From NCBI GenBank assembly GCA_023249105.1, contig JAHFDG010000011.1, positions 62,001 through 126,000 of the forward strand: a stretch of DNA of 64,000 nucleotides. Direction: 5' to 3'. Source of the stretch: Candidatus Methanoperedens sp. GTDB lineage: Archaea > Halobacteriota > Methanosarcinia > Methanosarcinales > Methanoperedenaceae. The notes below the pieces were generated by a model. The model saw only the letters and a program-made list of their open reading frames with translations, did no database searches and was not told the DNA's origin. This document shows, one piece after another, positions 5,883 through 12,976 of this stretch. Positions within the stretch are counted from its first letter, which is position 1; each line of letters starts with the position of its first letter. Position numbers and translations under genes: made by a program.

Positions 5883-6842
5883 GTGGAGAGTGATATATTG
5901 AGTTTAGCGGGAATTTTATACGGTGGTTATGAGGCTCTGTTAGCCAATGAAACAAAGGATAAACCGGTTCCGTCTCATGTTGCCATTATAATGGATGGGA
6001 ACAGGCGATTTGCAAAAAAACATGGGTTGGCACAGTATTACGGTCATTTAAAAGGCGCAGATACCACAGAAAATGTTCTTGACTGGAGTTTTGACCTCGG
6101 TATTAAACAGCTCACGGTTTACGCTTTTTCAACAGAGAATTTCGAAAGAACAGATGAAGAGAAAAACAGGATTTTTGAACTCATTGGTATCAAGTTCGAT
6201 AAAATATGCGTCGATGAACGTACTCATAAGCGCCGTATGAGAGTCAGGGTGATTGGAAATATTGACCTCCTTCCTCCATCCCTTAGAACATCAGCCAAAC
6301 ATGCAGAAGAAATTACAAAGAATTACGATGGCGTATATCTCAATGTCGCGCTTGCTTATGGGGGGAGGCAAGAGCTTATTGATGCTGCGCGGAAGATGGC
6401 CTGGAAAATCAGAAATGGTGAATTAGCCTTAAAAGACATTAATGAAGATACCATATCGAATAACTTATATCCTGCAAGCGGCTCCATGCCCTGTGTTGAC
6501 CTTATTATAAGGACTGGCGGCGATGAAAGGATTTCCAATTTCCTTCCATGGCAGGCTAACGGGAATGAATGCGCTGCATATTTCTGTGCTCCTTTCTGGC
6601 CAGAGTTTCGCCGCATAGATTTCCTGCGGGCTATACGCACATACCAGACGCGAGAGCATGAAAGGCAAAAAAACACGGTTATGCGGATTGTCAAACTTTT
6701 AAGCTATTATGGGCTGGTGGAAGTTGAAGATGTTATTTCCATTTCCAGGAGATTTATTAAAATCCCAAAAGAAGAAGTCATAAAGATACTTCATGAACTT
6801 GCGTACCATAATGCTGTGATGCATAACATGATTAAGTGGTAG
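5883..6842 (+). CDS. uppS: cis-Prenyltransferase, catalytic subunit (polyprenyl diphosphate synthase)
   Basis: Builds the long cis-polyprenyl (dolichol-type) chain of the glycosyl carrier lipid from isopentenyl diphosphate. The 319-residue protein has the catalytic D38-G39-N40-R41-R42 motif, the Y-G-G-R-Q segment and the RTGGDERISNF substrate-binding stretch. After AIRTYQTREHERQK it lacks the R-x-G that ends classical homodimeric enzymes and instead has about 70 extra residues. That is the pattern of eukaryotic DHDDS, which needs a partner subunit. The start is GTG, with no Shine-Dalgarno but a TATA-like CTTTAATA at 5858-5865. The convergent gene at 6852-7505 looks like the partner. Confidence 0.9.
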   Translation: MESDILSLAGILYGGYEALLANETKDKPVPSHVAIIMDGNRRFAKKHGLAQYYGHLKGADTTENVLDWSFDLGIKQLTVYAFSTENFERTDEEKNRIFELIGIKFDKICVDERTHKRRMRVRVIGNIDLLPPSLRTSAKHAEEITKNYDGVYLNVALAYGGRQELIDAARKMAWKIRNGELALKDINEDTISNNLYPASGSMPCVDLIIRTGGDERISNFLPWQANGNECAAYFCAPFWPEFRRIDFLRAIRTYQTREHERQKNTVMRIVKLLSYYGLVEVEDVISISRRFIKIPKEEVIKILHELAYHNAVMHNMIKW

Positions 6843-6851
6843 TCTATTGAA

Positions 6852-7505
6852 TTATTTCCCGAACCTGCGCTGCCGCTTCTGGAAATCTCTTATTGCCCTC
6901 AAGAAATCAACCTTCCTGAAATCAAGCCAGTTAACATCAGTAAAATACAGCTCGGAATAAACAGATTGCCAGATAAGGAAATCTGTCAATCTCTTGCCCC
7001 CGGCCCTGATTACAATATCAGGCTCGGATTTAAATAATAGGTGGGATTCAATCACGTTTTCATTGATTTCATCGGGTGCCAGGTTTCCATCTTCCACCTG
7101 TGTCATTATTTCCTTAATTGCCCGGGTCAATTCATACTTCCCGCTGTATCCGAGAGATATCTCAAGATTCATCCCTGAAGAGTCGTGCTTTTTTATCTCC
7201 CTGTCCCCTCTTGTTATTACAGTAATATTCGGAGTGATGTTACAAAGCGCTGAGGGGATTTCTCCTGATAATTTATTGCAGATTTTCCTGCCCAGCTTCG
7301 CATCCACCTCGATAATACTTATATAAATAGTGACTGTACCAATTCCCGTTTCTTTGCACCAGGTGACAAAAGAATTCAATTTGCTATAATTATCATCTGT
7401 GAGCAAATCATTTTCAGAAAGCGCAAGGACGATGTGCTTCGGTACATCCTGTTTTTTTATGGCATTTTTGAGTTTCCATTCATATGCTTTCGAAATGAAT
7501 CCCAT
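6852..7505 (-). CDS. Degenerate cis-prenyltransferase homolog, likely NgBR-like partner subunit
   Basis: A 217-residue protein aligned end to end with UppS. The catalytic DGNRR position is replaced by ALSENDL (28-34), so the pyrophosphate-binding aspartate is absent. It keeps the dimer-interface and product-end segment (IRAGGKRLTDFLIWQ and FRKVDFLRAIRDFQ) and ends in RRFGK, the R-x-G motif missing from its neighbour. In eukaryotes Nus1/NgBR has exactly this loss and retention. A heteromeric enzyme has been described in Methanosarcina mazei (recalled, not checked). The genes are convergent with 9 nt between stops, so they are not one operon. Confidence 0.8.
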   Translation of the reverse strand: MGFISKAYEWKLKNAIKKQDVPKHIVLALSENDLLTDDNYSKLNSFVTWCKETGIGTVTIYISIIEVDAKLGRKICNKLSGEIPSALCNITPNITVITRGDREIKKHDSSGMNLEISLGYSGKYELTRAIKEIMTQVEDGNLAPDEINENVIESHLLFKSEPDIVIRAGGKRLTDFLIWQSVYSELYFTDVNWLDFRKVDFLRAIRDFQKRQRRFGK

Positions 7506-7565
7506 TGTTCTTTTATTGGGATGTAAGGATAAAGTATTTGCCTATGAAATCCATCTCGGTGATTG

Positions 7566-8924
7566 ATGAAGTTGATACAGTGCTGTGAGAAACAAGGCAT
7601 CTTTATTTTTATTGGGCTGATTGTGCTGCTCTTTCCCTTCTTTAAGATATCATATCTAGCGGCAGCTTTTCTTGGGGGAGCCATACTTTTTTCTGTCCTT
7701 TCCCCGAAGTCCTCCGTTTTCTGTTTTTTTGCCCGCGAATCGGATGTCAAAGCCGGTAAACTTATCAGCCTGATTCAACTCTTTTTTACCATAGCCCTGC
7801 TTTTCATAATAAGCCTTGCCGTAGGACCAGATAAATTCCCTTTATTTATTATCGGGGCGGCCTTTGCTATTACGACTTTCGGAGATGGTGTCGCTGATGC
7901 TGTAAATATTCTTGAGAAAACAAAACAGGCCGGCCATGCTCGGAATGAAAAATACTATTGTGCAAAATCAAGTATTATTTTCTTAATTTCAGGAAGTCTT
8001 TGTGCATTTGTTGCAGGAGCCTGGATATCGGGCTTTACTTTACAGGTTCCCTACGAGATGATAATTTTCCTTGCGGTCTTGGGAGCCATAACCGGGGTGC
8101 TTCTTGAAACCATGATAGAGACAGAGGATAATATCGTCATCCCTTTTGGTTCTGCGATGGTAATGTGGCTTTTCTATACTTTTAGCTATAATGTGGAGAC
8201 CGTAAATCTTATGTGGGCGCTCGTTTTCTCTTTTTCACTCGGGTACCTTGCATTCAAGGTTCGTATCGCAGATATATCTGCCATGCTGAGCGCAACATTG
8301 CTCGGAGTTGTGATTATTATATCCAGTGATAAAGGCTGGTTTTTATTTTCCATTCTCCTTGCCTTTTTTTTAATGGGAAGTCTATTTACCCGTTACAAAT
8401 ACAGTTATAAATTAGCTCAAGGAGTAGCAGAGGGAAAAGGTGGGGTCCGCGGATATAAGAACGTTTTCAGCAATTCCTTGGCTGCTCTTTCTCTGGCGGT
8501 AGCGTATGGAATATTCCCCTCTCACGGACTGGTGTTGTTGGCAGCATACCTGGGTTCGGTTGCAACAGCCTGCGGCGACACGCTGGCAAGTGAAATAGGG
8601 GAAACTTACAAAGGAGAGCCACGCATGATTACGACTTTTAAAAAGGTCAGGCCGGGTACTGACGGTGCGATTTCAAAACTGGGTGAAGCAGCGGCATTTT
8701 TCGGGGCATTTGCTATTGCGATTCTTGCATTCATCTTTATTCGAAATGATTTCATACTCATGATTGCGGTGGCAGCAGGAGGATTTATCGGTACCAACAT
8801 CGATAGTGTACTTGGCGCCACGCTCCAGCAGAAAGGTTACCTTTCAAACAACGGGGTCAATCTTTTCGCAACTATTTCGGGGGCGATAATTGCCGGGATA
8901 GTTTATTATTTAATGGGCTCGTAG
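7566..8924 (+). CDS. DUF92 (TIGR00297) family membrane protein, possible polyprenol/dolichol kinase-type enzyme
   Basis: A polytopic membrane protein of 452 residues with roughly 11-13 hydrophobic segments. The C-terminal half carries the DUF92 signature (LGSVATACGDTLASEIGE and KKVRPGTDGAISKLGE). Plant VTE6, a DUF92 protein, phosphorylates phytyl-phosphate, so a polyprenyl-phosphate kinase role is plausible beside the cis-prenyltransferases, but this is inference. I chose ATG 7566 over the in-frame TTG at 7563. Its last codons Gly-Ser-stop are the first ten bases of tRNA-Arg. Confidence 0.85.
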   Translation: MKLIQCCEKQGIFIFIGLIVLLFPFFKISYLAAAFLGGAILFSVLSPKSSVFCFFARESDVKAGKLISLIQLFFTIALLFIISLAVGPDKFPLFIIGAAFAITTFGDGVADAVNILEKTKQAGHARNEKYYCAKSSIIFLISGSLCAFVAGAWISGFTLQVPYEMIIFLAVLGAITGVLLETMIETEDNIVIPFGSAMVMWLFYTFSYNVETVNLMWALVFSFSLGYLAFKVRIADISAMLSATLLGVVIIISSDKGWFLFSILLAFFLMGSLFTRYKYSYKLAQGVAEGKGGVRGYKNVFSNSLAALSLAVAYGIFPSHGLVLLAAYLGSVATACGDTLASEIGETYKGEPRMITTFKKVRPGTDGAISKLGEAAAFFGAFAIAILAFIFIRNDFILMIAVAAGGFIGTNIDSVLGATLQQKGYLSNNGVNLFATISGAIIAGIVYYLMGS

Positions 8925-8988
8925 TATAGTCCGGATAGTACTTGGGCCTCCGGAGCCTAGGACCTGGGTTCAAATCCCAGCGAGCCCG
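8915..8988 (+). tRNA. tRNA-Arg (anticodon CCG)
   Basis: A complete cloverleaf of 74 nt. The acceptor GGGCTCG pairs fully with CGAGCCC, followed by discriminator G8988. The anticodon stem TGGGC/GCCTA has one G-T pair and encloses the loop CTCCGGA, giving anticodon CCG at loop positions 34-36, which reads CGG. The T arm is CTGGG-TTCAAAT-CCCAG. CCA is not encoded. The 5' ten bases overlap the end and stop codon of the preceding DUF92 gene. No intron is seen. Confidence 0.95.
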
Positions 8989-9004
8989 TATATAACTGAT
9001 AAGC

Positions 9005-9823
9005 ATGAATCGCAATCCAGTAACGAAAAGGACTTTAATTTTTTATTTAGTGATTACCCTGGTTATTGTAGTCTCAAGCATATCAGTCATCTGGCTTCCC
9101 AAGGAAAATTCTGTTTCCAAAAGCACGGAGGATTCGGCCAAAATCCCGCCGTTAATAGCATTTCTCCCTTTCATTGCCTATATTGTAATGATATTGCTTC
9201 CAATTATTTATAAAAGACAGGACAAGGAGTCATTCGTCTGGGGGCACCGTTTTTTTAAGGGCGTGTATCTTGGGTTTCTCCTGATGACGATGATATTTTT
9301 AATAGAGCTTGCATCGGGTTTTATCCATATCGATGACCTAACTCCTGATTACCAGAATGCATTGATAGGCGGGATAATTTTGCAGGGAATTGTGGCTTTC
9401 GGGGAAGAATTGCCATTCAGGGGATACATACTCCCGGATATGGCGAAAAAATACGGGTCATGGAATGCCGTATTTTTATCCTCCGCGTTCTTTTCTATCC
9501 TTCATATACCTTCAATCCTGACACTGAATCTTAGCCAGACCAACATTATTATAATGCTGTTGACTATAACGATAGCCGAAGTCCTCCTTGCTCTTTGTTA
9601 TCTTTATGACGGGCTTTCAATGTCTATCGGATTTCATTTCACATGGAACTTTTTCCAGTACCATGTATATTCATTGAGGCAGGACTTTGGCGGAATATTA
9701 AAAATAACCTCTGATAACCAGCTCATAACAGGCGGGACTTTCGGTCCTGAAGCGGGTTTGCTTGGACTCTTCGTTGTGATTCTGGCCTTTATAGTAGTGT
9801 TCTTTTGGATGCAGTCCCGTTAA
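9005..9823 (+). CDS. CPBP family intramembrane metalloprotease
   Basis: A 272-residue protein with about eight hydrophobic segments and the CPBP (type II CAAX prenyl protease/Abi) signature. It has E134-E135-x3-R139 (GEELPFRGY), followed by the second motif with His in FSILHIP and the third in GFHFTWNFF. These residues form the active site in Rce1-type glutamate proteases. The substrate is unknown. It starts 16 nt after tRNA-Arg and its stop codon overlaps that of a small convergent gene. Confidence 0.9.
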   Translation: MNRNPVTKRTLIFYLVITLVIVVSSISVIWLPKENSVSKSTEDSAKIPPLIAFLPFIAYIVMILLPIIYKRQDKESFVWGHRFFKGVYLGFLLMTMIFLIELASGFIHIDDLTPDYQNALIGGIILQGIVAFGEELPFRGYILPDMAKKYGSWNAVFLSSAFFSILHIPSILTLNLSQTNIIIMLLTITIAEVLLALCYLYDGLSMSIGFHFTWNFFQYHVYSLRQDFGGILKITSDNQLITGGTFGPEAGLLGLFVVILAFIVVFFWMQSR

Positions 9824-9930
9824 ACAAGTGTTTTTATGAACTCAGGTATAAGCACCAGTGTTAAGAATATGCCTGCTGCTGCTGCACATGCCCAGAAAAT
9901 ATAACCCAAAAATAATTTCGGAAACTTCAT
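9820..9930 (-). CDS. Small single-span membrane protein (36 aa)
   Basis: An ATG at 9930 is preceded by a good Shine-Dalgarno (AAGGTGAG, 5 nt spacing) and opens a 36-codon frame starting MKFPKLFLGYIFWACAAAAG and ending in FIKTLV. It would form one transmembrane helix with a short basic N-terminus. Its stop codon overlaps the stop of the convergent CPBP gene by two bases. No family is recognised. The strong ribosome site and clean hydrophobic profile argue for a real gene; length alone does not. Confidence 0.5.
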   Translation of the reverse strand: MKFPKLFLGYIFWACAAAAGIFLTLVLIPEFIKTLV

Positions 9931-9971
9931 GAACTCACCTTAATTTTAAATTGAGTCCAGTGTATATAAAG

Positions 9972-10013
9972 ATTCCTAAAAAAAAGAAGCCCCCCACAGC
10001 AAGCTGCGGGGCA
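9972..10013 (-). terminator. Hairpin plus T-tract terminator downstream of MC1
   Basis: Read on the minus strand, GCCCCGCAG and CTGTGGGGGGC can form a GC-rich stem with an asymmetric bulge. It is followed by CTTCTTTTTTTTTAGG. This lies directly after the MC1 stop at 10031 and would end that transcript. Confidence 0.55.
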
Positions 10014-10030
10014 TTCCGATAAAATAAAAT

Positions 10031-10330
10031 TTAAATCTTATCCAGTAGCTCAACGCCTACTTTCTTTACATTTGGCTTGTTGATTTTTGCAGGCATCCAT
10101 TTTGGTTTGTTCTTGGGTGCTGCGACTGTTTCTGTCCATCCCTTGTATACATGAATCTTCTTGGTTCCTCTCTCCCTGAGCTTTAATTCAACAGGCTTTG
10201 ATTTAGTTCCTTTGCTGCGGTTGGCTGCTTTCAATGCTGCCTGGCGTGGCTGATGACCAGTGAATACTCCAGTCTCGTTTCCGTTCTTTTCTCTTAATAC
10301 AAAATTTCTTATTTCTACCATATTTTTCAT
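10031..10330 (-). CDS. Chromosomal protein MC1
   Basis: A DNA-bending, histone-unrelated chromatin protein. The 99 residues match the MC1 family along their length: RNFVLREKNGNETGVFTGHQ, PRQAALKAANR, LRERGTKKIHVYKGW and APKNKPKWMP are family blocks. MC1 is typical of Methanosarcinales and haloarchaea, which supports the taxonomic placement. The frame begins at ATG 10330, but the second ATG at 10321 (MVEIRNF) fits family N-termini better, so the start is uncertain by three residues. Confidence 0.95.
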   Translation of the reverse strand: MKNMVEIRNFVLREKNGNETGVFTGHQPRQAALKAANRSKGTKSKPVELKLRERGTKKIHVYKGWTETVAAPKNKPKWMPAKINKPNVKKVGVELLDKI

Positions 10331-10335
10331 ACCCC

Positions 10336-10352
10336 GACAACGATTTGTTGTC
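10336..10352 (-). promoter_or_regulatory. Perfect inverted repeat in the MC1 leader
   Basis: GACAAC and GTTGTC flank a five-base spacer, 5 nt upstream of the MC1 ATG. A TATA-like TTTATATA (minus strand) at about 10374-10383 would place the transcript start just upstream. The repeat could be a repressor site or an RNA hairpin near the ribosome site. The rest of 10353-10646 holds no gene; it contains this promoter and, near 10615-10624, a TATA-like CTTTAATATT for the cobamide operon. Confidence 0.45.
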
Positions 10353-10646
10353 TTACCTTACAATGTAACGTCATAGTATATAAAGCTATTTGTGAAATCT
10401 GTGGCTAAGCATACCGTTTTATAATAATAGAACTGCCGTTATTGGTATTTCAAAATCCGAAAAAACCGAATCTATAGGCTTATTATTTAAGTTGTTTGAG
10501 TTAAAAACGCGATTCTTAGAATTGCCAATCTTTCCATTGGTATAAAAAATCATATGCTTAAGGCGTCTGTACGAAAAATTCTTATTATACGATTTTCATA
10601 AATCCTTTACACTACTTTAATATTCTTTCCAAACAAAACAGGGTTT

Positions 10647-12056
10647 GTGCCTCTTATTAACAGAGTTAGAAAAACCGCGATTGGATTGATGCCCTGCTTT
10701 CACGGCGCCAGACTATCAGAAAATGCGATGGCCTCCGGAAAAAATGCAGATGAGCTGCTGGATTTCAGTGTCAATCTAAATCCTCTCGGCCCTCCGAAAT
10801 CAAAGAAATTATTGAGCGGCGTTTTTCAAAACATTAGCAATTATCCCGACAACGGATATCCGGGATTTAAAAAAGCGGCAGCGGATAGTCTCAATGTCCT
10901 GCCTGAAAATATCGTTCCCGGGAACGGCTCATCAGAAATAATCAGGTTATTTGCAGAAACTGTTATTGAGCCCGGTGATAAAGTCATAATTCCATCCCCG
11001 GCATTCGGGGAATATGAACTCCAGTGCAAATTATTCGGGGCAGAAATAGAATACATTGATTACCGCCAAATAACAAAAGTGAATCCCCGTGGTTACAAAG
11101 CTGTTTTTCTCTGCAATCCGAATAATCCCACAGGTAACCTTCTTCGGCGCAGGGATATTATCAAAATTGCAAAAACATGCGCTTTTTCTGAAACTTTTTT
11201 ATTCGTGGATGAAGCGTTCATCGAGCTTTCGGACCAGCGTGAGAGTATTGCTGACATAGCCGCATCTTGCGATTTTGTCATGGTGCTTCGTTCGCTCACC
11301 AAAACGTACTCAGTCGCCGGATTGAGGATTGGTTTTGCTGTAGCTTCTCCCGGGTTTGCAGCCCTGTTGAATAATGCCCGACTTCATTGGAATATGAACA
11401 CTGTCGCCGCGGCGGTGGGGGAGCAGCTTCTCAGGAAAAACCAGGATTATTTAGAGAAATCACTTGAATTAATCAGGAAAGAACGGGAATGGCTGGCAAT
11501 ACGCCTTTGCGGAATACGCGGTTTTAAACCATATCCGAGCGATACAAATTTCATTCTCATAGATGCAAGGGATTTCGGTATCAATTCCGCAGAACTGACT
11601 GCAAGAATGCTAAAACACGGGATTATTATCCGTGATTGCGCTTCCTTCGGGCTTGAAAATCATATCAGGGTTGCAGTCAGGAAAAGAAGCGAAAATAGAA
11701 AATTGATTGAAGCTTTTTCAATGGTCATAAAAGAATGGGGAAATGAACTTGCAGAAAAAGAGATAGGAAAGGCCCTTGAAAGAGGAGTTACTGCAAGAAG
11801 CAGGATTGATTGTGAATATTATCCATGCCACTTTGAAGGCCAGGACTGCACCTTTTGCTTCTGTCCTTTTTATCCCTGTGGAAACGTAAGAACTGGCGGG
11901 GAACTTATCCGCAAATCTACGGGGGGGACGGTATGGAGCTGCGCCGGGTGCAACCTTATCCACAGGGGCGACATAGCTGAGAAGGTGCTTGGGGCTTTGA
12001 TGGAGGGAAAGAAGCTCAAAGATATCTGGAAGCTTGTAATGGAGACGAATTTATGA
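10647..12056 (+). CDS. cobD: Threonine-phosphate decarboxylase CobD with C-terminal Cys-rich domain
   Basis: Makes the aminopropanol-phosphate linker of the cobamide nucleotide loop. Residues 1 to about 370 are a fold-type I PLP enzyme with LTKTYSVAGLRIGF (PLP lysine K219) and FLCNPNNPTGN. The last 85 residues hold a Cys cluster (CEYYPCHFEGQDCTFCFCPF, then C in WSCAGCN). In M. mazei a CobD of this architecture was reported to act as both threonine kinase and decarboxylase (recalled). The GTG at 10647 lies about 25 nt after a TATA-like box; an in-frame ATG at 10689 is the alternative start. Overlaps cbiB by 4 nt. Confidence 0.92.
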   Translation: MPLINRVRKTAIGLMPCFHGARLSENAMASGKNADELLDFSVNLNPLGPPKSKKLLSGVFQNISNYPDNGYPGFKKAAADSLNVLPENIVPGNGSSEIIRLFAETVIEPGDKVIIPSPAFGEYELQCKLFGAEIEYIDYRQITKVNPRGYKAVFLCNPNNPTGNLLRRRDIIKIAKTCAFSETFLFVDEAFIELSDQRESIADIAASCDFVMVLRSLTKTYSVAGLRIGFAVASPGFAALLNNARLHWNMNTVAAAVGEQLLRKNQDYLEKSLELIRKEREWLAIRLCGIRGFKPYPSDTNFILIDARDFGINSAELTARMLKHGIIIRDCASFGLENHIRVAVRKRSENRKLIEAFSMVIKEWGNELAEKEIGKALERGVTARSRIDCEYYPCHFEGQDCTFCFCPFYPCGNVRTGGELIRKSTGGTVWSCAGCNLIHRGDIAEKVLGALMEGKKLKDIWKLVMETNL

Positions 12057-12976
12057 TAATTATTGATTTCTGGATACAGGTCTTGCTCCTTTCGTTGCTG
12101 TTTGATATTTTATTCGCAGAGCCGCCCGCGTTTATTCATCCCGTGGTGTGGATGGGAAAAATGATAAATGTATTCACGCGCGGCGCCCCTGTTCGCCACA
12201 GGAAGATTTATGGATTATTCATGGTGATTTTCTGCGTCGGGGCAGCAGCGCTTGCGGGTCTTTTGATAATATCGCTTGGAACCGGTCTTTTGGGTTTAAT
12301 CATCGCCGCGTATTTCTTAAAATCCAGCTTTTCAATTCGCATGTTGTTGGAATCGGCTCTGGGAATAAAAAAAGACCTTGAAGATGGCAAAATCGAAAAA
12401 GCTAGAAGCGAATTGAAAACGTTTGTGGGAAGGGATACTTCCAGGCTTGACAAATCACAATCTGCTTCAGCCGTAATAGAATCGCTTGCTGAAAGCTTTG
12501 TTGACGGAATTCTCTCACCACTTTTTTATTTCCTGCTTTTCGGCCTGCCCGGCGCGCTGGCTTACCGCATGATAAATACGCTTGATTCCATGGTGGGGTA
12601 TAGGAAAGAACCCTTTGTTGAACTTGGGTTTGCTTCTGCAAGATTCGATGATATTGCTAACTTCGTGCCCGCGAGGCTATCGTTAGTGTTTATTTTTATT
12701 GCCTCGATTTTTTTTGGAAAGCCAGCCGATGCCATCAAAACATGCATCAATGACCATAAAAAAACCGCATCACCAAATTCAGGATGGCCGATGGCTGCTG
12801 TTTCCGGCGCCCTGAATGTGAGGCTTGAAAAAGTGGGTTTTCATGTGTTGGGTGATGGGCATAATAATCCGCAGTCTTTTCAGATAAAGAAGGCAGTTTA
12901 TATCGTGGGTTTTTCATCGTTTCTGGTGATTGCAGGAATATATTTTATAGGGAAGGTGCCACTAATTCGATTCTAA
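12053..12976 (+). CDS. cbiB: Adenosylcobinamide-phosphate synthase CbiB
   Basis: A membrane enzyme that attaches aminopropanol-phosphate to adenosylcobyric acid. The 307-residue protein has the CbiB opening (LLFDILFAEPPAFIHPVVWM), the SFVDGILSPLFYFLLFG segment, YRMINTLDSMVGY and the NSGWPMAAVSGAL motif. Its start overlaps cobD (ATGA-type), implying translational coupling. Product of CobD is its substrate. Confidence 0.95.
   Translation: MIIIDFWIQVLLLSLLFDILFAEPPAFIHPVVWMGKMINVFTRGAPVRHRKIYGLFMVIFCVGAAALAGLLIISLGTGLLGLIIAAYFLKSSFSIRMLLESALGIKKDLEDGKIEKARSELKTFVGRDTSRLDKSQSASAVIESLAESFVDGILSPLFYFLLFGLPGALAYRMINTLDSMVGYRKEPFVELGFASARFDDIANFVPARLSLVFIFIASIFFGKPADAIKTCINDHKKTASPNSGWPMAAVSGALNVRLEKVGFHVLGDGHNNPQSFQIKKAVYIVGFSSFLVIAGIYFIGKVPLIRF

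Follow-up and report, generated by a model that had tools for sequence, protein, structure and literature searches.

Heteromeric cis-prenyltransferases (cPTs) are known from archaea, with Methanosarcina as one case and Archaeoglobus as a similar one. The Methanosarcina mazei proteins MM_0618 and MM_1083 are described as a heteromeric cPT with C45-50 products (Emi et al. 2019, cited in PMC8131916), in line with the Methanosarcina enzyme mentioned in the initial annotation of the DNA analysed here. In the human complex, the RxG motif of NgBR is reported to shape the two substrate sites of DHDDS, and activity to be about 400-fold higher in the heteromer than in the DHDDS homodimer (PMC7573591). 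How the polyprenyl carrier is completed and recycled in archaea has been described as unknown (PMC5088576). The DUF92 family (arCOG02245, COG1836) is reported to be cytidylyltransferase-related and to have only uppS as a conserved gene context (PMC5898192, published in 2015), and VTE6, a phytyl-phosphate kinase, has been tied to COG1836 (PMC9782597).

The window, a stretch of 64,000 nucleotides from a Candidatus Methanoperedens sp., contains two PF01255 genes, here called A and B, next to a DUF92 gene. Judging from their sequences, we consider it quite probable that A and B together form the sole cPT of this organism, a heteromer, and that DUF92 is a carrier-lipid kinase whose gene probably shares a promoter with that of B.

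Two unlike PF01255 paralogues

Both open reading frames of the pair lie where the initial annotation had placed them (Table 1). A and B are convergent, their stop codons being separated by 9 bp. DUF92 had been taken to follow the pair; it does adjoin B, but as a separate transcript that diverges from B, with a gap of 60 bp between the two starts. The best DUF92 start is the ATG at 7566, whereas the TTG at 7563 is disfavoured. A tRNA-Arg (CCG) gene (8914-8989, same strand) overlaps the final 11 bases of the DUF92 ORF, and directly past it lies a gene for an Rce1-like CPBP membrane protease (9005-9823), which also adjoins DUF92 in seven relatives.

Table 1 Features of the A-B-DUF92 locus (positions in the window)
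Feature	Position	Strand	Remarks
A, catalytic cis-prenyltransferase subunit (DHDDS-like)	5883..6842	+	DGNRR, no C-terminal RxG
B, non-catalytic cis-prenyltransferase paralogue (NgBR/NUS1-like)	6852..7505	-	no DGN, C-terminal RRFGK
17-bp promoter-like element GGCAAATACTTTATCCT	7526..7542	-	between B and DUF92
DUF92/TIGR00297 (COG1836) polytopic membrane protein	7566..8924	+	candidate CTP-dependent polyprenol/polyprenyl-phosphate kinase

A starts with GTG, has 319 aa and covers the whole PF01255 profile (239.6 bits). DGNRR occupies residues 38-42 and the C-terminus reads HNMIKW. Among solved structures, human DHDDS is the closest relative (E 5e-49), and D34, R37, R38, R205, R211 and S213 are listed as its substrate-binding residues (PMC7573591); D38, R41, R42, R210, R216 and S218 of A align with them. 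The last 60 or so residues of A (6660-6842) form an extension without Pfam match that is conserved in several families and missing in others, for example f16, f19 and f26.

B (217 aa) matches PF01255 with 117.7 bits at profile positions 109-219 only, that is, with its C-terminal half. In the P-loop region it reads LALSENDLL in place of IIMDGNRR. Despite this loss, the C-terminal half is highly conserved. The predicted model (mean pLDDT 84) has the cPT fold and matches 8wu6_B with Z 17.8 and an rmsd of 2.8 over 199 residues. Named loci with a B 71-97% identical to that of the window are mostly labelled Candidatus Methanoperedens.

The initial annotation had described A as having DGNRR without a C-terminal R-x-G, and B as having lost DGNRR and ending in RRFGK. 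This complementary pattern holds for the loci fetched across the phylum. DGNRR is present in 54/54 A proteins, and a regular-expression search for RxG at the terminus hits only two of them (G044 and G109), in G044 clearly at a non-homologous place. DGN is absent from 72/72 B proteins, 70 of which have the C-terminal RxG; the two without a match end in RKYGK or RKFGK. Chance or an ORF-calling artefact as the origin of the motif split is ruled out by the PF01255 scores together with these motif counts.

Residues 18-217 of B align end to end with NUS1 chains (E 4.6e-5). A profile of B gives 37 bits for NUS1, 78 for DHDDS and up to 119 for bacterial UppS. B begins with MGFISKAYEWKLKNAIKKQ directly ahead of the cPT domain and has no N-terminal membrane segment; an N-terminal transmembrane domain is a feature of NgBR/NUS1 (PMC7573591). 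Membership of B in the NgBR/NUS1 subfamily is therefore not claimed, since B is closer to catalytic cPTs than to NUS1 and lacks this domain. Because the profile scores bacterial cPTs above NUS1, the statement that B works like NgBR is supported and the statement that B is NgBR is not.

The source genome (3.28 Mb, 99.7% complete) has exactly two PF01255 genes, A and B, both above the Pfam cut-off; a third, homomeric cPT was not found in this inventory. Homomeric-type cPTs are present in some relatives. The division into a catalytic and an accessory subunit proposed at the outset is well supported by the motifs, the two-gene inventory and the co-occurrence of A and B in relatives. Apparently, the split between A and B is a DHDDS/NgBR-like division of labour and a phylum-wide rule that extends beyond Methanosarcina.

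Gene order in the phylum and the genus

The phylum sample comprised 80 genomes, and the counts use the 65 that list A, B and DUF92. The others were six genomes without PF01255 and nine with A whose B was not among the matches listed (six of family f9, two of f15, one of f22). Genes within 5 kb were taken as linked. Split matches were merged for G075 (A) and G067 (DUF92), seven homomeric-type matches were set aside, and three rows were omitted as weaker or partial (G055, G082 and, for G075, the second fragment row).

A and B are linked in 32/65 genomes, always convergently, and unlinked in 33. B and DUF92 are linked in 35/65 genomes, always divergently, and unlinked in 30. All three are linked in 22/65, always in the order A-> <-B DUF92->. 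The A-B link occurs in 13 and the B-DUF92 link in 11 of the 20 families, and neither is found in any of the 19 genomes of f5, f10 and f24. In the simplest reading, A-> <-B DUF92-> is the ancestral order of the phylum and was lost in places. A, B and DUF92 are scattered in 8/8 Methanosarcinaceae-like genomes (f5, G039 and G027 among them); it was in the Methanosarcinaceae, the group of these f5-like genomes, that the heteromer was tested. All five sampled genomes of f12 have DUF92 and no PF01255, and both sampled genomes of f28 have a cPT and no DUF92, so neither strictly requires the other.

Of the relatives sampled, 37 genomes have both B and DUF92, and the two are linked in 30. Within the genus, B lies beside DUF92 in 22/22 genomes, also where A has moved; A adjoins B in 11 and lies apart in the others. 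The more specific link is that of the accessory subunit B with DUF92. In one close relative (L113, B 94% identical; 6748-12244) the gap between A and B is taken up by three long ORFs; one, with 960 codons, looks subtilase-like by eye, and the other two are similar to each other.

The DUF92 protein and the 17-bp element

DUF92 scores 210.6 bits against PF01940 (cut-off 27.5) and 220.8 against TIGR00297 (cut-off 205.85). PF01940 corresponds to its C-terminal half; the N-terminal half is Sec59-like by the literature, a Sec59-like N-terminal domain being reported for some arCOG02245 proteins (PMC5898192). A search by sequence found no solved DUF92 relative, and Foldseek with the predicted model (pLDDT 90) gave no match below E 0.001. 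The model of the C-terminal half resembles 5guf with Z 6.4 and an rmsd of 3.6 over 117 residues, and CdsA (4q2g) with Z 4.9 and an rmsd of 3.3 over 126 residues; these Z values are in a range that is possible by chance for helical proteins. All 35 DUF92 sequences compared have D338, E343 and D413 (452-aa numbering) without exception. A GDG..D motif of the N-terminal half is found in 9/9 Methanoperedens rows, whereas only 4 of the 26 other rows keep its first aspartate; the N-terminal half may therefore plausibly be an active kinase here, but in general this is unlikely. In the source genome, a BacA-type phosphatase was not found, and a PF01148 search gave two weaker genes elsewhere. By analogy with its VTE6 and Sec59 relatives, DUF92 is a candidate polyprenol or polyprenyl-phosphate kinase.

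The 17-bp element lies on the B strand in the 60-bp gap. It precedes the start of B by about 20 bp and the ATG of DUF92 by 24-40 bp. The distance to the B start is again about 20 bp in most Methanosarcinales loci. We scanned 80 named B loci, 41 with DUF92 adjoining B and 39 without. In the linked loci the element was found with at most one mismatch in 28, at most three in 31 and at most four in 37; the remaining four had 6-7. None of the 39 unlinked loci had four mismatches or fewer (three had 5, one 6 and the others 7-9), and shuffled upstream sequences reached this level in 0.17% of 2400 trials. Since the element loci are related, the counts for linked and unlinked loci are not independent. 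Related forms occur in the linked families f17, f21, f11, f7, f14 and f6; in the linked families f13, f18, f23 and f9 the element was not recognisable. At five loci with unlinked DUF92 genes the best match had 4-7 mismatches and none was convincing, and at eight Methanoperedens loci where A is not beside B the best matches over the whole locus were at chance level (4-6 mismatches). The longest invariant run was 19 bp upstream of B, 4 upstream of A and 2 upstream of Hel308, an imperfect control because the alignment upstream of DUF92 failed.

A general regulon was rejected: the source genome has a single exact copy of the element, and near matches are at control level (12 sites with at most three mismatches, against 15 for the reversed pattern). 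The element may be a core promoter, possibly one that serves B and DUF92 bidirectionally.

Interpretation and comparison with known systems

In the mechanism that we propose, A would bind the allylic primer and IPP and carry out the chemistry with its DGNRR P-loop. B, whose own P-loop is lost, would use the R-x-G tail at its C-terminus to close the active site of A, in the manner of NgBR and DHDDS; we infer this completion of the active site from the human complex. The product would be a long polyprenyl diphosphate that becomes the glycosyl carrier lipid. DUF92, as an enzyme with a putative CTP-transferase fold, would phosphorylate polyprenol or polyprenyl phosphate and bring the carrier lipid back into the pool. 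Its gene would be fired divergently from B, probably via a single shared promoter element.

The best reading of A and B is that of a heteromeric cPT, in which dimerisation and catalysis are predicted from sequence. A could instead be a self-sufficient homodimer and B an independent or regulatory relic outside the enzyme; A retains every listed catalytic residue, and homodimers of DHDDS have weak activity (PMC7573591). At least 52 of the 54 A members, however, do not have the C-terminal RxG, which in homodimers is provided in trans. Conservation of the C-terminal half of B after the loss of its P-loop, and the co-occurrence of the two (A in 39/40 and B in 38/40 relatives, source genome included), also speak against a relic, which makes this explanation quite improbable.

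Less clear-cut are two explanations that concern DUF92. Its link to B could be inherited gene order only, with DUF92 acting on another lipid, for example in geranylgeraniol or CDP-archaeol metabolism. This would suit the f12 genomes, which retain DUF92 without any PF01255. It would also suit the related fold that comes closest to the C-terminal half, 5guf, which we take to be CarS, the CDP-archaeol synthase, an enzyme of archaeal membrane lipids, and the substrate of the tested DUF92 relative VTE6, phytyl phosphate (PMC9782597). We consider it rather unlikely, given that uppS is the single conserved context reported for arCOG02245 (PMC5898192) and that 11 of the 20 sampled families retain the divergent arrangement, with a conserved element. 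The element in turn could be a promoter of B only, made up of BRE plus TATA, with a separate promoter for DUF92. In the direction of B, its sequence agrees with BRE followed by TATA (CGAAA-TAC-TTTAT in Methanocellales), at the spacing of a leaderless transcript, a reading based on what we take to be the BRE-TATA consensus. The element is nevertheless missing upstream of B genes that do not adjoin DUF92 (0/39), 15 of the 16 loci examined have an open DUF92 start (ATG, GTG or TTG) at a distance of 24-39 bp from it, and 16 aligned Methanoperedens sequences revealed no other long invariant stretch in the gap between B and DUF92. A promoter of B only is a serious possibility, to which we give somewhat less than an even chance.

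With A and B as a heteromeric cPT, the locus is mostly ordinary, a further example of a known archaeal enzyme in a partly known neighbourhood. The initial annotation had seen novelty in the local pairing and in the link to DUF92. The pairing turned out to be common in the phylum, and the neighbourhood of DUF92 and uppS was published in 2015 (PMC5898192), so neither is new as such. Less known, it seems, is that the gene for B and the adjoining one for a likely lipid kinase have a conserved promoter-like element in common. In the open-access literature we found nothing on the tie of B to DUF92, on the order of the three genes or on the 17-bp element. The notable remainder is a tie between B and DUF92 that is ancient, specific and regulatory-looking, and the conserved three-gene unit is a concrete candidate for the missing carrier-lipid step, together with a testable candidate promoter. 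Only tentatively do we go further and suggest that a single bidirectional core promoter, dedicated and deeply conserved, drives both B and a two-domain DUF92 lipid kinase, and that the two proteins work at the membrane as a single unit for synthesis and recycling of the carrier lipid, in which B, as an adaptor, would connect the soluble synthase A with the membrane kinase.

The 2015 study of arCOG02245 is presumably the work of Makarova, Galperin and Koonin. It deals with the same DUF92 family, the same neighbourhood and the same Sec59-like N-terminal domain as in the window; the accessible text does not identify the linked uppS as a non-catalytic subunit and does not mention the three-gene order or the shared element (PMC5898192). 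The M. mazei pair MM_0618/MM_1083 is, like the proposed A/B enzyme, a case of two PF01255 paralogues that act as one enzyme, there for a C45-50 glycosyl carrier lipid, in the same archaeal order; its genes lie apart, as the locus tags imply, whereas A and B are adjacent in the window. Human DHDDS/NgBR (NUS1; 6w2l, 6z1n, 7pax) has the same pattern of a catalytic subunit with DGNRR and without RxG, and an accessory subunit with RxG and without a P-loop. Unlike NgBR, B has no N-terminal membrane domain, and the likeness of the two is one of motif pattern, with no claim of ancestry; the C-terminal extension of A lies outside the stretch that matches DHDDS. Plant VTE6 (COG1836/DUF92) belongs to the same family as the C-terminal half of the window's DUF92, with its invariant acidic residues, whereas DUF92 combines two halves in a single chain, unlike plant VTE6 and the VTE5/Sec59 kinases (PMC9782597).
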